From Prostheceraeus crozeri (taxonomy: Eukaryota > Platyhelminthes > Polycladida > Euryleptidae): DNA of 64,000 nt. Shown piece by piece: positions 8,282-63,324 of the stretch (within the stretch, counting starts at the first letter, position 1; every line of letters begins with the position of its first letter). The DNA is taken from contig CAJQUW010007105.1 of assembly GCA_907163375.1 (NCBI GenBank), positions 62,001 through 126,000 on the forward strand. The letters are read 5' to 3'. The notes beneath the pieces were generated by a model. It did no database searches, was not told where the DNA came from, and saw only the letters and a program-made list of their open reading frames with translations. Both the position numbers and the translations under genes were made by a program.

Positions 8282-9943
8282 CAGGTTTTCCTACACGACA
8301 ACGGCAACTACCGAATCAAGAGCGGCACTTTGATTTCTAAAACGTTAAAAGATAAAATATTACGTCATTTCACAATTGAGAGCGACAACAATAAATAAAC
8401 TGCAGCAAAATAGTTCAATTGTGTCTCTATCAGATTAGTGAGCGGTATTTCACGTGAAGAATAAATGACATCTATTCGGTTTGATCCAAAGCCCTATATA
8501 GATGTCTTCACATCTGCTAAATTAACTTATCAATATGGAGCGCCAGCGAATACCTTCTGATGTTAAACGCAGAATCATATGGCTCACGAAGCCGGAGATG
8601 ATTATATTGAAGCCGCTCGAGTTCTCGGTGTAAAACGGGGTACTGCGTATTCAATAGTACATCGTTATATACTTGAAGGAGTCATTGAGCGTCCCAGAGG
8701 AGGAAGACGACACCAAAAGATGGACGAAGATATGGCAAATACTGTGGTAGAGATTGTTGAATCCCAACCGGAATTCACGTTAGCCCAAATCAAAGCTGAT
8801 CTACAAGCGCGGATGCCGGACAAGTCATCTGTCTCAATTCAAACTATCAGCACATGTCTGAGAAATCGTCTTATCATCTTAAAAAAAAATGGACTGTTCA
8901 AGTCAACCGCAATAGCCATGACGTCAAAGTGGAAAGTGCCGAGTATGCGAACTGGTATCTGCACACGATCAACGCAAACCATCCGCCAACATTTATTTTT
9001 GTGGACGAATCCGGCTTTAATTTATGGATCAGTCGCACACGAGGTCGCGCCAGACGGGGAGAGCGAGCTGTCAGGATTGTTCATGGACAACGCGGGCGGA
9101 ATTTTACTCTCATCTTGGCGGTCTCGAATGAATTTGTCGTCCATCATGAATTCTACGAAGGCGGAACCTCCTGTGAGAGATTTAACTCCTGGCTGGAAGA
9201 AGCGTCCGTTGCGGCTGGGGCTGGACCTCGTGTATTCGTCATGGATAATGCTCCGTGCCACAAGAGCCCGTGAAGTCAGTTTGCGGGAGGGACACTATTA
9301 GGTACTTACCGCCCTACTCTCCATTTCTCAATATCGCAGAGAACGCGTTTTCCATGTGGAAAGCGGCTTTCAAGAGAGAAGTAGCTGAGATTCGTGAGCA
9401 GTTACACAACTACACTGGACAACAGCGGAATCTGACCTTACTGCAACTCGCCTCCCAAAACATGAGTGCCATCACTGCAAATAAGATGGAAGGTCTTCCA
9501 GACGTATGGGCAGTTTGATGCCTAGACTAATTAATCGCGAGGATGTCTTACAAAACCATCAATGAATATTACGGCACTTGTTTTGTTATTATCAAAACTT
9601 TTTCGTATTGACTGACCTTTTCGTAAAAAAAAGTTTTTAATGACTTACTGTATTACCTTTATGAATTAAAATAATTATCAAACTTTTCCTTTTGACATAT
9701 TTCACAAAACTTTTTGTATTGACTTACCTGTTAAATAAAATATAATTGAATATGAAAGCCGTTTATGATTTCAGGCTGCCGCTCATTAAACTTATAAATC
9801 CATTGACAAACTCACTTATTATCACTACCGATTAAAAACAATATCATTCAATTGAAAACGCTGCTGATTAACAGAAATACCGTTGTTGCATCTTAAAACA
9901 TATTCTTTAATCTGATAGTCGCATTGTCGAACTGGAAAACCTG
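8282..9943 (+). mobile_element. Tc1/mariner-IS630 element with TA target duplication
   Basis: The left end TA-CAGGTTTTCC (8280-8291) and the right end GGAAAACCTG-TA (9934-9945) are perfect inverted repeats. Weaker complementarity continues for about 30 bases (CGACAA, ACTA blocks). TA dinucleotides flank both sides, as expected for this superfamily. Length is 1,662 bp with a single transposase relic inside. Short near-repeats of the type AAAACTTTTTCGTATTGACT recur between the gene and the right end. Confidence 0.9.
8534..9518 (+). pseudogene. IS630/mariner-type DDE transposase, frameshifted
   Basis: The reading frame starts at ATG 8534 (MERQRIPSDVKRRII) and shifts near 8577 into a helix-turn-helix region (ARVLGVKRGTAYSIVHRY). 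It shifts again near 8870 and near 9265. The DDE_3 catalytic core is visible: first Asp in IFVDESGFNLW, second Asp in VFVMDNAPCHKSP (Asp codon at 9244), and the Glu in LPPYSPFLNIAENAFSMWK (codon at 9339). About 31 residues separate the second Asp and the Glu, allowing for the frameshift. These enzymes cut and paste DNA at TA sites. At least three frameshifts make this copy inactive, while the catalytic residues remain readable. Total length of about 325 codons is normal for the family. Confidence 0.9.
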
Positions 9944-30564: not shown

Positions 30565-31792
30565 TTATATCATCCTGTCCTGCCAGGGTAGCTTTCCCAC
30601 ATCACTGTTGTAGTAGTCCTTCAAGTACAGTCGGAGTCTCTTGCCCTCTCGATTGGCTTGGTTAGCGCCACCAACATGTGCAATGTCGTGTAATTGTGTC
30701 TCTCGCCAAGCACCAGGGATGAAGCTGCCGTCACCAACAGGTTGGTCCAGGTCACCGGTCTGCAAAGAACGATGCTGCAGTCGCATCAAGTTCTGTAGGC
30801 ACATGGCTGCCATGACTATGACCTTGACTCTGATCGGATCTTGCTGCATGGTGGTCAGCAAGCATCTCCAGCGATGTGCAAGTATACCAAAGCTGTTCTC
30901 CACCACACGGCGGGCACGGGATAGGCGATAGTTGAATATCCGCTGTTGGTCCGTCATCTGGCGCTGGGAGAAGGGTTTCATCATCCACGAACGCAAGGGA
31001 AAGGCGTCATCTCCGACCACGAAGTATGGTGTTGGCCTGTCATCATGTGGTAGAGGCTCGGGATCTGGCAAGCGCAAAGTTCCCTCTTCCAGCTTTCTTC
31101 TCAGTTGTCCGTTGTTGAAGATTTGCGCATCTGAAGAAGAACCTTGGCATCCCACGTCTGCCCAGATGAACTTGTAGTCAGCATCCACCAAACCTAGAAG
31201 GATAATACTGAAGAAGCCCTTGTAATTGTGATAGAGAGTACCAGACTTCCTGGAACATCTTATGGCCACGTGCTTGCCATCCAGAGCTCCGCAGGTATGG
31301 TGAAAATTCCATTTCTCACCGAACTTCCTTGCAATGTCTCTTCAGTCATCAGGGTTCCTAGGGAAGGCAAACACCTGAACCTCGTACTCGTCAGCTATGG
31401 TCTGACAGACCTCCGAAATGAACAGTGCTATACTGTTGTGGGCAACACGGAACGAATACTGGAGTGTCTTGTAGCTTGCACCAGTAGCCATGTATCTAAG
31501 AGTGATAGCTAACTTCAGACCTTCTCGATTCTTGAGGATATGCGCGTCAGTATCTCGTAGAACATCTCCGGAGGCATTCTCAAGTAGTTGAGAAGTCCTC
31601 TGGGGATTGCAGCTCTAATTCTGCCATCAGAGTGTGGTACTGGCCAAACCCCTCACGCTTCGCAATCCAAGGCTTGACCCACCAACGTCTTCTGCGTCTT
31701 CTATTACGTCGTCGAAGTCAAATAAGAAGCACCAACGCAGCAATGTCTCTATCAGGTGAGTGCAGAACGTCACGGGGGCGAACAGAGGACAT
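30565..31792 (-). pseudogene. PIF/Harbinger DDE transposase (HARBI1-like), inactivated
   Basis: Reading the minus strand, the protein starts at ATG 31792 (MSSVRPRDVLHSPDRD) and passes an Arg-rich stretch. It then shows the domain core: RYMATGASYKTLQYSFRV, GALDGKHVAIRC (first Asp), YFVVGDDAFPLRSWMMKPF (second Asp) and RLSRARRVVENSFGILAHRW (Glu). All three catalytic acidic residues remain. It is broken by two in-frame TGA codons (one shortly after the N-terminus, one at 31342-31344 where the family usually has Trp before RDIA) and by two single-base frameshifts between about 31480 and 31590. The last 234 codons form an intact frame. The enzyme would have catalysed cut-and-paste transposition at TTA/TAA targets. 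Confidence 0.93.
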
Positions 31793-41345: not shown

Positions 41346-42093
41346 TAGTCCGGGAGCTAGCGTGAAGTTGTGCAGGGAACGAGGTAGTACATAAAACTTT
41401 CACATAGCATAGTACACCTCTAACCTACTGCAAAACTTCGCGTCTGCCGGATCAGATCATTTGCTTTTCAGAAATAGAGAGGATAACACAATCCTATGTA
41501 TTTCCAGTGGTAAAATTGTGACATTTAAGGTGTTGACTCCATTTTTTCGAATTTTCACTCATAAAAGTTACACAAATTAGTATTTTGTTGAACTGGTTAT
41601 TATAGAAATCATCTACAGATCATGATCTTTCAAATGAGCTATCATTCAGTGACAGAGAATGAAGTAAAGTGTACAAACAGACACTTTTCGTTGAAGTATA
41701 TCAACAATTTTCCTGAAATTTCTATGTTAAAATTTGCATTTACACCAACGAAAAGTGTCTGTTTGTACACTTTACTTCATCCTCTGTCACTGAATGATAA
41801 CTCATTTGAAAGATCATGATCTGTAGATGATTTCTATAATAACCAGTTCAACAAAATACTAATTTGTGTAACTTTTATGAGTGAAAATTCGAAAAAATGG
41901 AGTCAACACCTTAAATGTCACAATTTTACCACTGGAAATACATAGGATTGTGTTATCCTCTCTATTTCTGAAAAGCAAATGATCTGATCCGGCAGACGCG
42001 AAGTTTTGCAGTAGGTTAGAGGTGTACTATGCTATGTGAAAGTTTTATGTACTACCTCGTTCCCTGCACAACTTCACGCTAGCTCCCGGACTA
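41346..42093. mobile_element. 748-bp foldback element with 348-bp arms and TAC duplication
   Basis: The left arm (41346-41693) starts TAGTCCGGGAGCTAGC. The right arm (41746-42093) is its near-perfect inverted copy ending GCTAGCTCCCGGACTA. The arms are equal in length and the spacer is 52 bp. TAC lies on both sides (41343-41345, 42094-42096). The same flanking phrase (GACGTCACTAACTACTGGGA) occurs uninterrupted at 42474-42493, which provides an empty site with a single TAC. No transposase. The near-identity of the arms implies recent origin or arm homogenisation. The 3-bp duplication does not by itself fix the superfamily. Confidence 0.9.
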
Positions 42094-46528: not shown

Positions 46529-47025
46529 TCAAAGCACTGTTCCGAGAAGAATCCTTGCTCGCCATGCCGACTGTGACAGTCCATGTAAAATGCGTTCAGC
46601 ATCGCTTACTAGGACTTGTTGAACTTGCTTAGTTGTTAGCTGTCTACTTAGAGCGGCCTTAAAGCAACTGTGTGCTTGCTCCACTGGGTTGAGAAAAGCG
46701 CTGTGCGGAGGCTGAGTATGTACGTGGAATCGATGTTGATGTTCCTATGGCACTACAGTATTTAGATGTGGTCGGGCACCATCGTCTACTATATGAAGAG
46801 TTCCTTCAAAACGCGATGACCAATGAACAATGAGAAAATGAGATGATCAATGAACTCTTGATATCTCAAATGATCAACAGTTTGCTGCCTTAAATCAAAA
46901 TGGATGAGGCCCAAATCTGCATTGATAGCCATGATGAGATTGATATTAGCCATTCTGGTCCGACGACAAGTTGCCGCACCGCTTGTCCCACTGGTGCTCT
47001 ACCCTGTGCTCTTCTTGTAAAAAGA
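46529..47025 (-). pseudogene. IS630/Tc1-type DDE transposase relic
   Basis: On the minus strand, RRAQGRAPVGQAVRQLV is followed, after a one-base shift, by MANINLIMAINADLGLIHFD. A TAG stop follows, then VDDGARPHLNTVVP (second Asp) and, after another stop, PPHSAFLNPVEQAHSCFKAA (Glu) through to GTVL and TGA 46529-46531. This order is the C-terminal two thirds of a DDE_3 transposase. It is a different lineage from the element at 8282 (DDGARPH and NPVEQ versus DNAPCH and NIAEN). Terminal repeats were not found, so this is a decayed fragment. Confidence 0.82.
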
Positions 47026-47033
47026 TTGATACC

Positions 47034-48023
47034 GCATTAGTAGATGATGTGGTCATGGACATTTAATGACATCAACCAAATAGCGTATATGTAGCGCGCC
47101 TCCTTCGTTGCCTCCGTATTTTGATCCACATTCTGCCGAGCGAAGGCAGAAGCACGTAGTTTAAAATTCTCTGTTTTTCAGAAATTGAGTTGAAAAATTT
47201 CCACCATTTCACATAGTTTACTGTGTTTGAGTTTCATTCCTTATATAAATATTATATTCATCTGAATCCAGAGATGATGACAATTACAAATATGTGTAAA
47301 TTTTTATGATGTAGTGCATATTTACATGCGATATTTACTATAATTTGTTTAGTTCTACCAAAACATGCAACGTAATGAAAGAATCGCTACGCTATAATCA
47401 CGTACTTTGAAATACGTTTTGATGATTAACGATTTTCCCAGGCTATCACTACGCTAAAAACACACTGTTTTGTAATGCGTTGTACATGCAGCATAAAATG
47501 TGCGAGATTTGCTGCGACAAAAACACTTATTTCATGTTGGGTCATAAAGCAAGTCAGGCTATGTGACCTAATATAAGAATATTTTGATTGAATTTATTAC
47601 CGGTACTGGTATTTTTACTGTCTACATTGGCCCAACATTTGAAACCTGCACCTATTTTCTACGCTTATGTGATCTATTGATCCTTAACATGATTATTGTA
47701 CATTAATCGAAACCGATTCACATAGTTAAGTTTTTTAGAAAATGATTGTTAGAAAGCCGTTGATTTAAAGAGATGTGGACGACTCGAATTATTCGAAGCA
47801 TGTTTCCATGAGAACACATATAAGTAGAAAAATACATTTGATTAGAGTTGAATGTTTGGGAACCTCAGCAATACCTATTCAGAAAAAATAATCCAATCTA
47901 GATAAATTTCTTAAAACCCCGATGACTAACTGTAAGATAAAAGACGTCTGCCATCTTGCAATATATTTGCTTGATCAAAAACTATAGAAATAGCTTGAGC
48001 TACTCGAGTAAAAATCTGTCTAT
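47034..48023. other. Intergenic with GCTACGCT-type palindromic repeats
   Basis: Around 47375-47460, CGCTACGCTATAATCACGTA and CACTACGCTAAAAACAC resemble the repeat that surrounds the piggyBac insertion at 50.75 and 53.4 kb. No genes recognised. Confidence 0.35.
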
Positions 48024-50264
48024 TCAAAAATCAATGTCTCTTTCCACCGTCAGGTCAGCCGAGCTTTCATTAATTGTCAAATTGTGATAGAATGGTTGTC
48101 TGTGACGAGGAATAAGCTTCGACAACTTCATTAGATCGTTGTACTTCTCTTCACATATTCCACGTTTAGTGGCTTGCCTCGGAACAACTTGATTCAAAAA
48201 ATCAAGCTGCACATTCCTCCTTAAGCAAGAGATTTCCTCAAATTCATCATCCTACTCTTGTTTGATGAAAACTTTAAGCGATCCCCTACGAAATTGAATA
48301 ATGCGGAAATGAGATAGCCCTGCGATTCTGGATTTGGAATCCTTAGGATTAAAATTTAGCATGTCAGAATATTGGAGGACAACTGCTTTATTCCTTTTTC
48401 TGCAAGAGTCAATTGTTTTAACGTAATCTGAGAAGTCAAACATCTCCAAGTTTCTGATTTTCTGGGAAATAGAAGCATGTATGCTGTCGGCAGACATGTA
48501 CGTGTGACCCGCTTCCAAGAATTTTAGCGTGATTGAATGTGCGCCAATGGAATCACAGTTCACGAGACGAAGCAATGCAGTCAGAAGAATCCTATTCTTA
48601 TTTTGCGAATTGCAATTATCTGCATAAAATATTATCTCTTTTGCATCTTGGCAAAAAGAGGAAATGAAGTGATGATAGGCGGAAGCTACATTCGACGCCT
48701 TTCTCCCCGCCTCTTCCTCGTGCCATAAAAAACAAAAAGATTCGCCCTTTTCACCAACCTCAGCAAATGTCTCATTGAAGAGATTTAACTTCTGACTAAA
48801 AAAAGCTTCCTTGAAACCTAGTTTTGGGATCTGTAGAACCTTTTGTATGTCGACAGAAAAGACCTTACTATCTCCTACAGATGTTGCAGATTCAGCTGAA
48901 TCTTGTTTCATTGATTGGCGAGCGACATTACTTCGACTTTTATGCTGTTCTAATCTGCATTGACCAGGGCTACATTCATGTGAGCACCCACTATAATGAG
49001 TATGACAGAAACTGCATTTGTCAACAGGGTGGTGAAGCAAATGAAATGTTGAAAGAATCGAATACATCTTCAAAATATTTCCTCGAACACTTTGCATTAC
49101 CATTCAAAAAAGTTTTATATAGTTCTGCCTTTGACAAATATGGCGGTAAATATCTGCGGTTTGGTGCATGCAACAATCTGTAGTGTGAAATGCTTGGCTT
49201 GTACGATTCAATAAAGACGATAATTGATTCTCTGTATTCTTTCGAGAATTTGTTGGTTGGTTCATGTCTTCCTCTTTTGTCAGGCGGAGCACCATCAGTG
49301 GAATCAAATTCATTAGGGACATCTGCAAAGACTGATCGAAGAACCGAATCGTTAGAAATGCCTAAGGTTTCTAGGAAGAAAGCTTTACAAACTACTTTTC
49401 CAGATATTTTGTAAGTGGCTATCGTGTCACCTTTTTCGACTTGCTGTCACGCATACAACATGTCACCGAATGAAATACGAAGTCTCTACGTTCTTGTATT
49501 GTTTTGCCCCAATATCTGTCGTGAATCGTCTGACGGTCTTGGATTAATATCTCAGAACATTTGAAATTTCTAGCTCGATGTGAATTTTCATCGTGAGTGC
49601 AAGCAATCTCTACCATTGGATGTCTTGCTGATTTTGAAACTGTTCCATCAGTTATCTTAGTCGATATTTGTTCTGGCTCGCTTCTTGCTGACGCATCATC
49701 AACACCGTCACGCTGATTAAGTTCTGGTTCAGAATCTCTCAATGTATATGATACTTCGTAAGCGCTAGTTTCCGGTATAGGCCTACATGTAGAGAACTCA
49801 TTAAACTGTTTCCAAGACGCACGAGCGACATCATCATCTTGATTAAGTTCTGGTTCAGAATCTCTCAATGTATCTGATACTACATAACCGCTAGTTTTCG
49901 GTATAGGCCTACATGTAGAGAATTCATCAAACTGTTTCCAAGACGCATGAGCGACATCATCATCTTGATTTAGTTCTGGTTCAGAATCTCTCAATGTATC
50001 TGATACTCCATAACCGCTAGTTTCCGGTATATAAGTAGAGAACTCATGCAACTCCTTCCACGGCGCACGAGCGACATCATTGATGTTTTCATTCATTAAC
50101 GTCGACCAAAATCCACATGGTGCTGCTGATTCTTTGAACGGAATGTGTGGATGATCAATTGGACTGGGCATATCATTGTCAATATTGGTTTCCAAGATGT
50201 GTGCATTAGGATCTGACGTACATATAATTTTTCGTACATATAAATGTTTCGGATTGTTTCGCAC
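48024..50264 (-). pseudogene. DUF7869-like large protein, lightly broken
   Basis: Read on the minus strand. Residues 1 to about 170 are a variable region with three 42-residue repeats. Next comes a conserved block, CSEILIQDRQTIHDRYW and VVCKAFFLETLGIS, then SHYRLLHAPNRRYLPPYL. A Cys/His cluster follows (DKCSFCHTHY, CSHECSPGQC), then the core SVDIQKVLQIPKL, LWHEEEAGRKASNVAS, IIFYADNCNSQNKNR and AGHTYMSADSIHASI. The C-terminus is GICEEKYNDLMKL. This order is what I know from uncharacterised multi-copy animal proteins assigned to DUF7869, which look like RNase-H-fold nucleases. Damage is slight: one-base shifts near 49430 (in an A run) and 49050, and an in-frame TAG at 48252-48254 after which the frame stays open to 48024. 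About 720 codons in all. Host gene or transposase is unresolved; no terminal repeats were identified. Confidence 0.72.
49700..50085 (-). repeat. 126-bp in-frame tandem repeat inside the DUF7869-like gene
   Basis: GATTAAGTTCTGGTTCAGAA recurs at 49715, 49841 and 49967, exactly 126 bp apart. This is 42 codons encoding units such as SDTLRDSEPELNQDDDVA. The third unit lacks the GGCCTACATG stretch. A period divisible by three keeps the frame open, which suggests expansion while the gene was coding. Confidence 0.9.
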
Positions 50265-50779
50265 GAATTGAGATCAGAATTTCCAAGGAGAAAGATCACT
50301 CAGCACGTAAATGTTCAGTCGTACAGAGAATCAGATTGTCATTGAATCGCAACTCAGAGATCACTTTTCACTAAAACACGTAGACGTCCAGTCGTTGACG
50401 CTGAGTCAGACTGAAACTCGCAGGCCGTCAGGTCAGATTGAACAGAAATGGTTTTAGTGAGAAACACATAGATTTCCTTCGCAGTGAGCACAATAGAATA
50501 CAACCCGTCAGCAATTTCAAAATAGTTACCAACGTCTACGAACGTTGGATTTCGCTCAATAAATTGACTAAGTGTGTGCGCGCGTGTGTGTGTGTAAGAG
50601 AGAGAGAGATAGAAATTGAGTGAGAAAGAGCAAGGAACTGCCCTGCATCTGTAGGCTGCACATGTGGACGACTTGAATATTCGCTGTCAGATATGAGTGG
50701 ATGTATTTCAAGTGTTTCTCCGCACCAGTAAATGTTCAAAATGCGATTGGAAATGCTACGCTAAAACCGCTCACTTTAA
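50265..50779. other. 5' flank of the DUF7869-like gene; GT/AG simple repeats
   Basis: Simple (GT)n and (AG)n sequence lies at 50572-50610. CAGTCGT/AGTCAGACTG-like phrases recur at 50.31-50.44 kb. The last 30 bases are one half of the palindrome into which piggyBac inserted. Confidence 0.45.
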
Positions 50780-51080
50780 CCCGTATTCAGCCGAAAGGGG
50801 TAATTAATTACCCCAGACTATTTTAACTCAACATAAAAAAAATTCTAATAAGGGCACAGCCCTGTCCTTACACATGTTTAAGTTTTTATTCACTGTTAAT
50901 AAGAAATAAGATCCTGTAATTCCGTACTATTCATACCTTACTTGTAATCGCAATAACGTTTAGTAGTGGGGTAACTTGTTACCCCTTTTGGTCGTTTGCG
51001 TGATTTTTTTGAAGACACGTAATTTTAATTGTTTGCACTTTCACTAGCATCTACATTTACCACGTAGCCACATTTCGCGC

Positions 51081-51130
51081 GTACACACACAGGAGCACAC
51101 ACACACACACACACACACGCACGCACGCGT
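51081..51130. repeat. (AC)n microsatellite inside the piggyBac 5' region
   Basis: ACACAC repeats with a GCACGC tail. This is simple sequence upstream of the transposase start. Confidence 0.8.
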
Positions 51131-51277
51131 TCGATAGTGGCATAAAAAGACACGCTTGACAATAGAAGCGCTTGCTGCCGCGCATCCAATGAGAAATGCG
51201 AGCTAAATTTACATGCGCTGTGAAGTAAGATAAACCTCGCAGTTGATCGATTTACAAGTCAGTTACTGATTAAGAAA

Positions 51278-53028
51278 ATGTCGCGCCGGCGTTATAATGC
51301 AGAGCAAATAGCTGACATGCTAACCAATATTCCATCAGATGAAGAAATACCAAGTGAAGACGATGCAAGTGTGGACGAAAGAGATAATATCGAAATGAAT
51401 GACTATCCCCAATCCGATGAATTTGAGATGGAGAGCCCCTCAGAACAATCCAGTGAATCATGTGACGATGATGATGACGACAATGACATCGTATGTGGCC
51501 GAAATGGTTTCCAATGGTCTAGAAAATCCCCTCATCGTGCTTCGTTCCGGCAACAAAACATAGTACGAGAGTCTTTGGGCCTTGCACCTCCAGTCAGAGA
51601 CTTAGAATCTGTGGACGATTTTTTTCGTTATGTGATTGATTACAGGCTTATACGAGACATACTTTTCAATACGAACAAGCGGCTACCACACGATGCAATG
51701 GAACTGGTTGAAAATGAAATTTATGCATATATTGGACTTCTACTTTTGTTTGGCCTATCCAAAAAGTGTGATGTCGAAATTCAGGACATATGGAAAAAAG
51801 ACAGTGTGCATTTTTTGCCTTTAGCTGTGCTTACAATGTCAAGAAACCGTTTCTTGCAAATAAATAGGCACATAACATTTGATGATATCGACTCAAGAAA
51901 TGAACGAAAAGTCAACGACCCAAAATGTTACAAAATTCGAGAAATGATGACCCACTTTCGAGACAAAATTCGACAAGCAATTGTACCATCTGAAGAACTC
52001 TGTGTGGACGAAACACTATACGCTTTTCGTGGAAAGTGCTCAGTGCGACAATACATGCCGAATAAACCCAATAAATACGGGTTGAAATACTGGACCATTG
52101 TTGACGGAAAAACTGGCTATGCACTTGACACAACACTTTACGCTGGAAAAGAACAGCAAGGAAACAGACGAAACGTGAACGTGGGTGAAAATGTGGTGCT
52201 CGAACTTTGCCGACCTTACTTTCGAACCGGTAGAGGAGTGACAGTGGACAATTTTTTCACATCAATTCCTTTAGCCAATCGTCTATGGCAGGAGGGATGA
52301 CTCTGACAGGAACTCTTCGTCAAAACAAGGTTGAGATTCCTGCCAGTTGTCTGACAAAGAATCGAGACTTATACAGTTCAGAATTTCTGTTTGCTGGTCC
52401 TTTGACACTGTGTTCATATGCTTGCAAACCAAAGAAGATGGTCGTTTTACTTTCCACCGAGCACCATACCTCAACTATCGATTCGAATGACAAAAAGACT
52501 CCGAAAATCATCGAGGCCTACAACGATTACAAAGGTGGAGTTGATGCGCTCGATTGGCGGATCGAAAAATACACGTGCCGGCGGAAAACAGCTCGATGGA
52601 CACTGAATGTTTTTTTCTATCTTCTCGATGTTGCTGCAGCAAATGCAGTCGTGCTAAGCAAATTGGTTTTTGTCCTGAAAAACGAGCCTCGAAACCTTTC
52701 ACCCAGATATCGGAAAGATGCATTGGAGAAACTTGCAAGGAGCCTACTTCAACCTTGCATTGACGATCGAATCAGCAAGTGGCAGGTGTCCCGGCAAGGG
52801 ATCCCGAGGGAGCTTCAGCATCTCGCTATGTCATTGGGCTTTCTATCGAGCACTCCTGGAGGTGCACATGGACAGCTGCAGGTGCCGAGAAATTCATCTG
52901 GCCGCTGCCATCTCTGCCCGCGCAGCCTTGACCGGAAAACCAGAATGAACTGTGTTTTTTGTGTTCGTTTTTGTTGCAAAGAGCATTGCTCGCAGTTGTG
53001 CGAAGATTGCAAACAGAGCTTCGAATAA
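51278..53028 (+). pseudogene. piggyBac transposase, single one-base frameshift
   Basis: The start ATG at 51278 is followed by an acidic N-terminus with a run of Asp near residues 63-69. The catalytic triad is present: Asp244 in ELCVDETLYAF, Asp324 in GVTVDNFFTSIPLANRLW and an Asp at about 423 in YKGGVDALD. Their spacing is close to the canonical enzyme. The C-terminus is a cysteine-rich zinc-binding domain (CHLCPRS, CVFCVRFCCKEHC, CEDC). One base appears to be missing at about 52295 (QEGG then TGA instead of EGMTLTG), splitting the protein into 340 and about 243 residues. The combined length, about 582, is near the usual 590. A poly(A) signal AATAAA lies at 53103-53108. A sequencing or assembly error at this base would make the gene intact. 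Confidence 0.95.
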
Positions 53029-53039
53029 ATTTTGAAAAG

Positions 53040-53115
53040 AATTGAAATTACATTGTTAATTTACAATGTTACAATGTAATTTACAATGTTACAATGTTAC
53101 ACAATAAATTACAAT
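53040..53115 (+). repeat. ACAATGTTA tandem repeats in the piggyBac 3' untranslated region
   Basis: TTACAATGTTACAATGT is repeated several times directly after the transposase stop and runs into AATAAA. Confidence 0.75.
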
Positions 53116-53370
53116 GTTAAGCAAATTTCAGTTTTTACTTCAGAACCAAAAAAAGTAGTATGCAAGATTACAGCAGTAAATTAATTAATAAATCAATTAA
53201 TTTAAAAAAAATTATCATTCAGCTATCTTATCGTATGGTATTGACTACATAAACGACCATAAGATCAACAAATCTAGATTTCGTAATTTATCATAATCGA
53301 AAAATGCATGGGGTAATAAATTACCCCTTTTGGTAAACAACGTTCGAAAAATGTTTTGGCTGAATACGGG

Positions 53371-53700
53371 TTAAACTACGTGCTTTTCGTGTAGCTTTTA
53401 GAAATGAAATATTTTCCTTAAGTGCTTCTGCTTTTCCTTTCAGGGATTAAACAAAAGATATCTATAACTCAGAAGCAATTACTTTAAAATATGTGCTTTA
53501 CTGCTTTTAGAGATGCAATTATTTCTAAAATTGTAAAGTACGTGTTTTTTGAAAAAAATATCTCCTATAGTAAACATGATTCGAACTTATGGATTTTATA
53601 AGATGATAGTATAAGGTGTAAAATTCATTTTTCGATATGCTACAGTAAAAAAACGTACTTTAAACTACGTGCTTTTGCCTTTGCACGGCAGCATTAGAGA
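53371..53700. repeat. Degenerate TTTAAA-centred palindromic repeat units
   Basis: CTTTAAACTACGTGCTTTT occurs at the piggyBac right flank (53370) and near 53658, and a variant TTTAAAATATGTGCTTTAC lies near 53484. Each is followed by an AGAGATGC/AGAAATG phrase. Together with GCTACGCTAAAACCGCTCAC left of the transposon, the first unit forms an imperfect palindrome centred on the TTAA target. Confidence 0.55.
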
Positions 53701-54232
53701 TGCCATTTCTGTTCAGCATATTCAACATCAAAAACTGAATGAGCACGTAAAGTGACCACATCTGCTTCATAGAGTAGGTGTATTAGGTAGAGTGGCAACT
53801 CAGCATTTTTTAAATCCCCAATATACAGCTTCGATTTCATCAAATGAACATGAGTCGAGACCCCGTACCACCTGTGAGATATGCAAGTTTCTACACTTTT
53901 GGAGAAATTAACACGAATCTGACTGATCATGATAGCAATACAAAATAAAGAATTGTATTCCTATGTACAAATCCTCCATTTCATGTCAATTTGGAGAGGC
54001 ATAGTTAGTTAAATTAGCTATTAGATGGGTTACCATCACTAAAAGCTCACCATTATTATAATTAGATTATTTTCTTAAGCGTGATCATATCACAAAGTGC
54101 CACTGAAAGAGCAAAACATCATGTAATCAAGGAAGCTTATCATAATTAACTTTAAAAGATGCCCATGGTCCACATCACTATTCTGACTCAAGAAATGACG
54201 CCTTGTGAATCATAAAATTGTGCCACTGAAAA
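53701..54232. other. Intergenic; unassigned open frame
   Basis: A 78-codon minus-strand frame (53694-53930) has balanced composition (ELPLYLIHLLYEADVV...) but no recognisable family and no promoter. It could be a fragment of a decayed gene. Confidence 0.3.
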
Positions 54233-54615
54233 TGAATTAAAAACATGACATCTCAGCTAAGAAGCACAATGAAATCTCAACTTTTCCTGGAAGACTTGCA
54301 CGAACTTGCATTATAATGTGGTTCATGAAATGCTCTAGATCATCAGCTTAATTTCCGCTTAATTAAGATGTTTGCTGGCGAATATTCATTCCTTTTGATA
54401 TGCAACTTGTTTCATACTACTTATAAAGGGGCTTCATCTCGGTAATATATAAATTTGCAAAATTTTAGCTTTTTAAAAATTGCTCAGATAATTTTTTGGA
54501 CCGCAGGTACATAATCTTTTCATATAAAAATTTTCACTGAATGCAGATACCTGTTTAAGTCGATACTCTACCTACATATACTTACTCTATGATCCGCTTT
54601 AAATATCGCGAAGCT
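54233..54615 (+). repeat. Dispersed repeat R4, copy 1
   Basis: Homologous in inverted orientation to 62791-63155. Anchors are GGTTCATGAAAT, TAATTTCCGCTTA, ATTCATTCCTTTTGATAT, CTTATAAAGGGGCTTCAT and TTTTTGGACCGCAGG. About 380 bp. Family unknown. Confidence 0.75.
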
Positions 54616-57460: not shown

Positions 57461-58768
57461 AACTCGAGAAAATGAGAAATCGAACACAGATTTTCTTCAA
57501 CCAATTAAGAGAAAATATTAAATTATTATTCTGTGTAACGCTTCGCTTTCTGCTTCTGCTGGTAAAATCATAAAAATAAAGGGAACTTTAAAATCTCATT
57601 GAACGAATTGTAACAGAGTCTGATGCATGGGAGCTGCTTTCTCTTGTTCCCACAGGCCGACGAATTTCTATGTTCTTTTCTGAGGTGCATAGTTGACCAT
57701 TGAATCACTTTCATAGAAGGATTGGCACTGTATGCAATTAGCAGTTGATAGACATGTGATATAGAGACAGTCACGTGAACTCACACTCTAGATCTTATTG
57801 TGCGAGCCGATTCTCCAACATATGTCGATGTGCAACCTGTACATTCAATGAGACATATACAAAACTTTAACAATCACACTTCAGATTTGTAAGACTGTGT
57901 ACAGTAGGCTATACACAGTTAGCTATCATGTATACACTCCTGTTGTGACATGGGTAGTAAAATATGAGATAGAGATTTATTAGGGAAACAGACATTCAAT
58001 GAGGTGGCAAACTACATTTGTACCATATTCTTTTTATTTCTCTTGAATTCTCAATTCATTGCTATTTGGTAATGATGACCACAACTTTTCTCTTTCACCT
58101 CTTTCTCACTCGATATACTCACTTGCTTCATGGCATGTCTGATAACTTTCTTTGGACAATCGCTCTTGCATTGCCGTTTGGAATTTGTGTTACATTCATG
58201 TCATTTTCCTTCAAAGCATCATTTTTTCACATTTCTTGAAGTTCACCTAAGTTCAATTTTCAATGGATTGACGAGGATATATAAAAAATGGCATTAGTGT
58301 ATATATGATAGCTATCTGTAAATACTGCACACAGTCTTACAAATCTGAAGTGTGATTGTTAAAGTTTTGTATATGTCTCATTGAATGTACAGGTTGCACA
58401 TCGACATATGTTGGAGAATCGGCTTGCACAATAAGATCTAGAGTGTGAGTTCACGTGACTGTCCCTATATCACACGTCTATCTACTGCTAATTGCATACA
58501 GTGTCAATCCTTCTATGAAAGTGATTCAATGGTCAACTATGCACCTCAGAAAAGAACATAGAAATTCGTCGGCCTGTGGGAACAAGAGAAAGCAGCTCCC
58601 ATGCATCAGACTCTAGTACAATTCGTTCAATGTGATTTTAAAGTTCCCTTTATTTTTATGATTTTACCAGCAGAAGCAGAAAGCGAAGCGTTACACAGAA
58701 AAAAAATTAATATTTTTTCTCAATTGGTTGAAGAAAATTTGTGTTCGATTTCTCATTTTCTCGAGCTG
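57461..58768. mobile_element. 1.3-kb foldback with GIY-YIG remnants in both arms
   Basis: The left arm (57461-57938) and right arm (58296-58768) are inverted copies about 475 bp long with a 357-bp spacer. Read outward from the centre, each arm encodes IECTGCTSTYVGESARTIRS (the right copy has Cys for the first Arg), followed by a stop and frame changes. Paired Cys then T-Y-V-G-E-S...R is a GIY-YIG nuclease signature as in Penelope-like elements. Tail-to-tail partial copies are a known habit of that group, but a later palindromic duplication would look the same. Confidence 0.7.
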
Positions 58769-62790: not shown

Positions 62791-63155
62791 ATTTTCATTG
62801 AACACATAGAGGAAGCATAGGTAGAGTACATCGACACAAAAAAATTATCTATCTCTATTCAGTGAAAATTTTTAATTCGAAGGATTCAGTTTTCTGCCGA
62901 GATCACGTCCCTGCGGTCCAAAAAGCTAAAAATTATTTTATTATTAAAAAGCTAAATTTCTGTAAATTTCTATACTACCGACATGAAGCCCCTTTATAAG
63001 AAGCATGAAACAAGTTGGATATCAAAAGGAATGAATATTTGGCAATAAATATCCTAACTAAGCGGAAATTAAAATGATTGTCAAGGGAATTTCATGAACC
63101 GAATTTCTATGGAAGTCTTCAGAGAAAGTCGACATCTTTGTTGGCTGAAATTTCA
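62791..63155 (-). repeat. Dispersed repeat R4, copy 2 (inverted)
   Basis: Inverted copy of 54233-54615, with the same anchors in reverse (CCTGCGGTCCAAAAAGCTAA, ATGAAGCCCCTTTATAAG, ATATCAAAAGGAATGAAT, TAAGCGGAAATTA). Confidence 0.75.
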
Positions 63156-63324
63156 AGTTTTTAATTAAATTTTCATCGGTATGATCTTTTGATTCATTAA
63201 ATTTATATGTTTCATTTCTTGAATCTGAATAGTAATATGGACCCTTACATCATTCGAAGTTAATTGAAATCATAATCTTTGATTATGCTGTTTTGCTCAA
63301 GCGTTTGCAGGCTGCCTGTGATAT

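Follow-up and report, generated by a model that had tools for sequence, protein, structure and literature searches.

A gene with a DUF7869 domain in the flatworm Prostheceraeus crozeri very probably encodes the transposase of a cut-and-paste DNA transposon

A damaged gene on the minus strand of a 64-kb stretch of Prostheceraeus crozeri DNA (the window) raises the question of whether it is a host gene lying by chance among transposons, or belongs to a mobile element, and if so to which kind. The initial annotation had read it as a DUF7869-like protein gene and suspected a transposase without recognised ends, which might define a new element type. We conclude that it lies in a cut-and-paste DNA transposon, whose transposase it very probably encodes, and that the copy in the window is dead.

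The presence of a DUF7869-like gene was confirmed. As first read, one TAG and two frame changes connect the open minus-strand pieces at 50273-49422, 49446-49024, 49103-48255 and 48251-48027. The piece at 48255-49103 matches the Pfam family DUF7869 (PF25273.1) at E=8e-11, with 42.3 bits versus a curated cut-off of 26, and no Pfam match was obtained for the remaining three. The remaining coding region thus broken covers 48024..50239 on the minus strand, its 5' end being gone. The reading frame of the domain-bearing piece is wrong for its first ~24 residues; long matches from paralogues mostly begin at residue 22-27, and two short matches to its residues 1-27, in C40 and C1809, are ascribed to near-copy DNA similarity. 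The motifs VDIQKVL and SADSIHASI, quoted earlier for this protein, were found in the sequence, as was a Cys/His cluster (CSFCHTHYSGCSHECSPGQCRLEQH, 48942..49016, minus strand), which is zinc-finger-like and situated ahead of the candidate catalytic region. The corresponding evidence from paralogues is a weak zf-HC5HC2H_2 match in L003, below the cut-off. The N-terminus is indeed repeat-expanded, a 126-bp (42-codon) unit being present three times in tandem at 49690..50067 (minus strand), compared to two units in L010 and L011 and one in L013 and L015, counts that were derived from alignment gaps of 124, 126, 252 and 252 bp.

Calling the gene lightly damaged understated the damage, as a deletion of 1.8-1.9 kb including the start codon had been overlooked. 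Its junction lies at 50239..50240, where the paralogues L010, L011 and L013 have 1,832, 1,796 and 1,920 bp of extra DNA, respectively. This consists of the end of exon 1 (GAAG/GTAAGT, the slash marking the exon border), an intron of ~1.6-1.8 kb, an acceptor ending in TTTTTCAG, and an ATG, with exon borders predicted from the genomic sequence. The start codon is carried by ATGGAATCC, translated MESSFLAYLE..., and since the deletion took the end of exon 1, the first intron and this ATG, the window copy has no start codon.

By searching the 2.05-Gb assembly to which the window belongs with the DUF7869 piece, we found at least 143 matches at E<=0.001, a lower bound obtained from 137 scored out of 1,738 candidates, with fragments of one copy counted apart. 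Twenty paralogue regions, 7 to 9.9 kb each, were extracted. In three of these, L010, L011 and L013, similarity runs from window position 47131-47133 to 53691, i.e. these copies are full-length and share both borders, at 96.6-96.8% pairwise identity to the window copy, while L012, L014 and L016 share the left border only. Similarity that stops at the coding region had been named beforehand as an outcome speaking against a transposon; among close copies it instead reaches shared tips, and the paralogue alignment suggested for this purpose yielded both common boundaries and 4-bp target duplications.

The whole element, with borders common to L010, L011 and L013, occupies 47133..53691, with the gene on the minus strand. 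Its left terminal inverted repeat, CTGCCGAGCGAAGGCAGAAGCACGTAGTTTAAA, is found at 47133..47165 on the plus strand and its right one, identical at 30 of 33 positions, at 53659..53691 on the minus strand, with the target-site duplication CATT at 47129..47132 and 53692..53695. A first-pass repeat search around the gene had given an inverted pair of 69 bp (47130-47198 and 53627-53694), which at base resolution reads CTGCCG[A/T]GC[G/A]AAGGCA[G/A]AAGCACGTAGTTTAAA, with CATT immediately outside both tips. Under the rules used, by which the 4-bp flanks and the first 6 bases had to match exactly and no fewer than 22/33 positions had to be identical, the best pair in 20 block-shuffled windows reached 23/33. 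The earlier statement that no terminal repeats are evident is thus not upheld, and the ends, far from unrecognised, are plain once a nested piggyBac is set aside. They are easily overlooked because this 2,591-bp insertion separates the gene from the right tip.

The nested piggyBac (DDE_Tnp_1_7) spans 50780..53370 on the plus strand, flanked by TTAA at 50776-50779 and 53371-53374. It has the tips CCCGTATTCAGCCG, with the palindromic GGGGTAATTAATTACCCC just inside, and a transposase in two overlapping frames (51224-52297 and 52234-53025). It is missing from L010, L011 and L013, where window position 50779 is followed directly by 53371 (L011, L013) or 53394 (L010). Two transposons are thus clearly nested here, and the outer one measures 6,559 bp with the piggyBac, or 3,964 bp once this insertion and one TTAA are subtracted. 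An inner pair of repeats at 50751-50796 and 53354-53399 was considered as a separate element and rejected; we interpret it as the piggyBac tips together with copies of the subterminal repeat of the outer element.

This subterminal repeat is the inner part of the tips. Allowing up to three mismatches, AAGCACGTAGTTTAAA occurs at eight sites in the 64-kb window, all of them inside the element (47150-53674), where 0.9 would be expected, a count matched by none of 100 shuffles. One of the eight lies at 47396..47411 on the plus strand, and a cluster in both orientations is situated near the right end, at 53370..53664.

The same ends recur across the genome. With the left 348 bp as DNA query, 18 matches were obtained, 17 of which carry the tip at no more than 8 mismatches (7 in L042; L043 is the match without a tip), in 15 distinct flanks when each of the two copy pairs with shared flanks (C10991/C2114 and two C11810 copies) is counted once. 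A query of the right 318 bp returned 17 matches, among them one that is the tip of a left end. Beyond these close copies, which we refer to as subfamily A, two more distant groups were distinguished, subfamilies B and C, whose proteins share 48% and 58% identity with that of the window, respectively. The DNA of the window resembles theirs inside the coding region only, as expected at that distance, and their ends were located by comparing their own copies. Representative tips of the three subfamilies agree at 24-26 of 33 positions, the maximum in shuffles being 18-19, and given these protein identities, tips and protein diverge together.

Target-site duplications were read directly at the tips and tallied locus by locus. 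Among 16 elements with both tips, from all three subfamilies, 14 have a perfect 4-bp duplication and two agree at three of four bases, while random re-pairing of left and right flanks (20,000 trials) gave 1.1 perfect duplications on average and at most six. The perfect cases in subfamily A are CATT in the window, AACT in C40, AGCA in C13058, TGAA in C7743, TGCA in C8248, ACTT in C411, AACA in C11784 and AGGT in C5505; the two imperfect ones, C14037 (TTCA/TGCA) and C1809 (AGCT/AACT), also belong to this subfamily and were counted against the pattern. All five two-tip loci in subfamily B are perfect (ATAT in C2433, CTAT in C2444, ATTT in C3482, ATGT in C3724 and ATAT in C6212), and the sole two-tip locus of subfamily C, C12330, has TGGT on both sides. 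Left outside the 16 were C1086, a 99.9% duplicate of C6212, and C2544, where the right tip was absent from its expected place, which likewise counts against. Also outside the 16 are copies with one end or none found, namely C11810 (twice), C4384, C8141, C10991, C2114, C9031, L017, L018, L022, L023, L026 and L029, and the weaker right-end matches C2517, C7 and C10566.

Two further features of these copies were observed. In C8248 (12451-44240), the subfamily-A tips lie 31.8 kb apart with TGCA at both and a DUF7869 fragment in between; if this is one element, it therefore holds other insertions, and it seems to have been enlarged by nested insertion. Arrays of a ~51-bp unit occur near both ends in L020 and L028, and near at least one end in L024, L026 and L027. 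They adjoin subfamily-B tips, are inverted between the two ends and vary in copy number among elements, and may possibly represent candidate binding sites of the transposase.

For the protein, we aligned the window piece with 14 relatives hand-picked for length and spread from the 143 matches (28-89% identical to the window). Twenty-two columns are invariant in this alignment, including three aspartates that we propose as candidate catalytic residues, namely D85 (48849..48851), D162 in the motif DNCxxQN (48618..48620) and D206 (48486..48488), all on the minus strand, identical in 15/15 sequences and spaced by 77 and 44 residues. The choice of these three is a guess, because E129, D223 and 17 more columns are equally invariant, and L018, a decayed copy outside the alignment, has Asn at D85, which was counted against. 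All seven relatives tested match the DUF7869 profile, five of them, like the window piece, over the curated cut-off; Pfam gives this domain no function, whereas here it is found inside tip-bounded mobile elements. Between subfamilies, synonymous sites are saturated and changes are most frequent at third codon positions (e.g. 143/94/257 over the three positions), and the protein was therefore under purifying selection. Within subfamilies, dN/dS ranges from 0.30 to 1.14, on few changes.

Searches for a known fold or distant relatives added little. Two single-sequence AlphaFold models had pLDDT values of 34.7 and 36.5, too poor to judge the fold, and no PDB relative was found at E<=1 with either single-sequence or profile queries. 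NCBIfam returned no family for three gene pieces, and phage records contained no relative. A first pattern scan of viral and prokaryote sequences gave no match, and later ones matched 45 and 53 stretches, none of them confirmed. One pattern-scan match, L001, was dismissed as chance, as no open frame of at least 100 aa spans it on the match strand. Ten further frames of at least 110 aa in L010, L011, L013, L019, L020, L021 and L024 held no credible domain, most of their matches being below the cut-off. The only one above it, bHLH_INO2 at L021:2998-3516 (E=4e-6), is taken as a repeat artefact, being a translated subterminal tandem array in which no stretch passes alone, and a suspected GIY-YIG fragment in L019 lacked Pfam support. 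Within the elements checked, and apart from the nested piggyBac, a credible known domain thus occurs in the DUF7869 frame alone.

Together, the exact shared borders, the duplications of fixed length and the spread of the 17 tipped left ends over 15 distinct flanks are those of a cut-and-paste transposon with terminal inverted repeats, and the transposase suspected from the start is strongly supported by the many paralogues (143 matches) whose close copies share tips. Could the gene still belong to the host, as a domesticated or ordinary nuclease that came to lie among transposons by chance? Open frames of 579-717 codons do persist in several copies. However, the number of matches in this one genome (a lower bound in which pieces are counted), the tips common to copies in unrelated flanks and the 4-bp duplications make this reading barely credible, and for the window locus itself, the matches and shared ends rule out a host or single-copy gene. 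All four subfamily-A copies with both ends (the window, L010, L011 and L013) have broken frames, which we counted against the transposase reading. In its favour, subfamily B includes two elements, L020 and L021, with an open frame of 717 codons enclosed by both tips and target duplications.

It is also conceivable that DUF7869 is a passenger or accessory protein, and that some unrelated transposase, recognising the same tips, moves the elements in trans. The poor single-sequence fold models, which give no confident RNase-H fold, leave room for this. Nevertheless, all three subfamilies have DUF7869 frames in their tip-bounded elements, and these frames diverge along with the tips, the three aspartates stay invariant across relatives of 28-89% identity, and no other transposase domain turned up in the window pieces or the ten further frames. 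Trans-mobilisation is therefore very unlikely, though slightly less so than a host gene.

If the DUF7869 protein is the transposase, its N-terminal part and Cys/His cluster would bind the tips and the subterminal repeats, and an RNase-H-like core with D85, D162 and D206 would cleave the tips and attach them to the target. Target cuts 4 bp apart would then give the 4-bp duplication. The window copy would have landed at CATT, next to a probable IS630-like remnant. Later, in whatever order, it would have lost 1.8-1.9 kb with the start codon, gained two frame changes and the TAG, and received the piggyBac at a TTAA near the right end.

The IS630-like (DDE_3) transposase remnant lies at the left border of the element, at 46532..47129 on the minus strand (DDE_3 at E=0.003, below the cut-off). 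Its part at 46532-46744 resembles 9309-9383 in the same window (tblastn E=5e-5), the part at the border, 46959-47129, does so at E=0.17, and a continuous IS630-like frame across the empty target site was sought, with none demonstrated. The remnant is weakly suggested as the target of insertion, and with similar weakness as a third, outermost layer of nesting.

As to which superfamily the element belongs to, several with duplications of this length can be compared. piggyBac and Kolobok are cut-and-paste elements with terminal inverted repeats and 4-bp duplications, as found here, but they duplicate TTAA, which occurs in none of the 14 perfect duplications of DUF7869 elements, and the TTAA superfamilies are thereby ruled out for the outer element. 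The DUF7869 pieces match no piggyBac model either, the real piggyBac of the window being the nested one. Ginger, Chapaev/CMC and Academ also have duplications of ~4 bp; unlike for these, the DUF7869 pieces match no integrase or other transposase model in Pfam (E<=10, and E<=1 in further searches).

The closest agreement is with the Sola superfamily (Sola1/2/3), which reportedly goes back to Bao et al. 2009. We consider it likely that the DUF7869 element belongs there, judging by its features. According to PMC10741241, Sola elements have DDD transposases, 4-bp duplications, lengths of mostly 2-9 kb and terminal inverted repeats of 11-1124 bp. The DUF7869 elements likewise have 4-bp duplications, tips of ~33 bp, measured lengths of 3.75-6.1 kb (C8248, with tips 31.8 kb apart, falls outside this range and is assumed to contain other insertions). 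Their three invariant aspartates, which stand beside other invariant acids, may correspond to the DDD residues. Furthermore, Sola2 is characterized by AT-rich 4-bp duplications, e.g. ATAT and ATTT, in PMC3627910, which agrees with subfamily B (ATAT twice, ATTT, ATGT and CTAT), whereas strict AT-richness is not seen in the targets of subfamily A (e.g. TGCA and AGGT). Because 4-bp duplications and a DDD-like protein are already published for Sola (PMC10741241), the new element type envisaged in the initial annotation is not established.

The alternative is that these elements form a DNA-transposon superfamily of their own. Pfam labels the domain as unknown, and the literature searched had no mention of DUF7869, PF25273, PTHR10773 or IPR057191, the last two being presumed identifiers of this family. 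The pattern scans, too, confirmed no viral or prokaryote relative, although Sola has been reported from bacteria (PMC10741241). On the other hand, the duplications, DDD-like acids, tip length and element length all fall within the Sola description of PMC10741241, and the AT-rich duplications of subfamily B are as given for Sola2 in PMC3627910. A separate superfamily is thus rather doubtful. It would be an undescribed eukaryotic cut-and-paste group marked by DUF7869, with tips 5'-C[TG]GCCGT...GGCA.AAC.ACGTA, 4-bp duplications and a D77D44D core, a reading that we regard as improbable. In that case, the DUF7869 genes annotated in other places would encode transposases or descend from transposase genes.

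A Pfam family of unknown function gains a function that can be tested (transposase), a likely substrate (the exact tips) and a footprint (the 4-bp duplication). DUF7869 genes can look endless, the right end being masked here by a nested piggyBac and the start by a deletion, and where annotations treat DUF7869 proteins as products of host genes, they may in fact count transposons, as demonstrated in this one genome. Activity can be addressed directly in L020 and L021, with their 717-codon frames, both tips and target duplications.

Various other repeats were found in the window. The scan for tips returned 36 further pairs, which were discarded, as they fall into three palindromic regions (around 10.4, 41.4-42.1 and 57.5-58.8 kb) and every pair has a palindromic "duplication". 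The long palindromes at 41354-42085 and 57468-58760 show, at many nested positions, 33-base arms that match perfectly or nearly so, and are probably foldback or MITE-like repeats. Another IS630-like remnant, broken in frame, is situated at 8567-9383, with HTH_32 and HTH_29 in 8567-9298, DDE_3 in 8800-9270 and similarity extending over 9309-9383. A DDE_Tnp_4 transposase, presumably of Harbinger type, occupies 30568-31341 on the minus strand with 258 codons open, and a C-terminal hAT dimerisation region (Dimer_Tnp_hAT) is found at 493-849. Lastly, the right flank of the element contains an inverted dispersed repeat, at 54109-54517 and 62900-63298, whose two copies are 72% identical.
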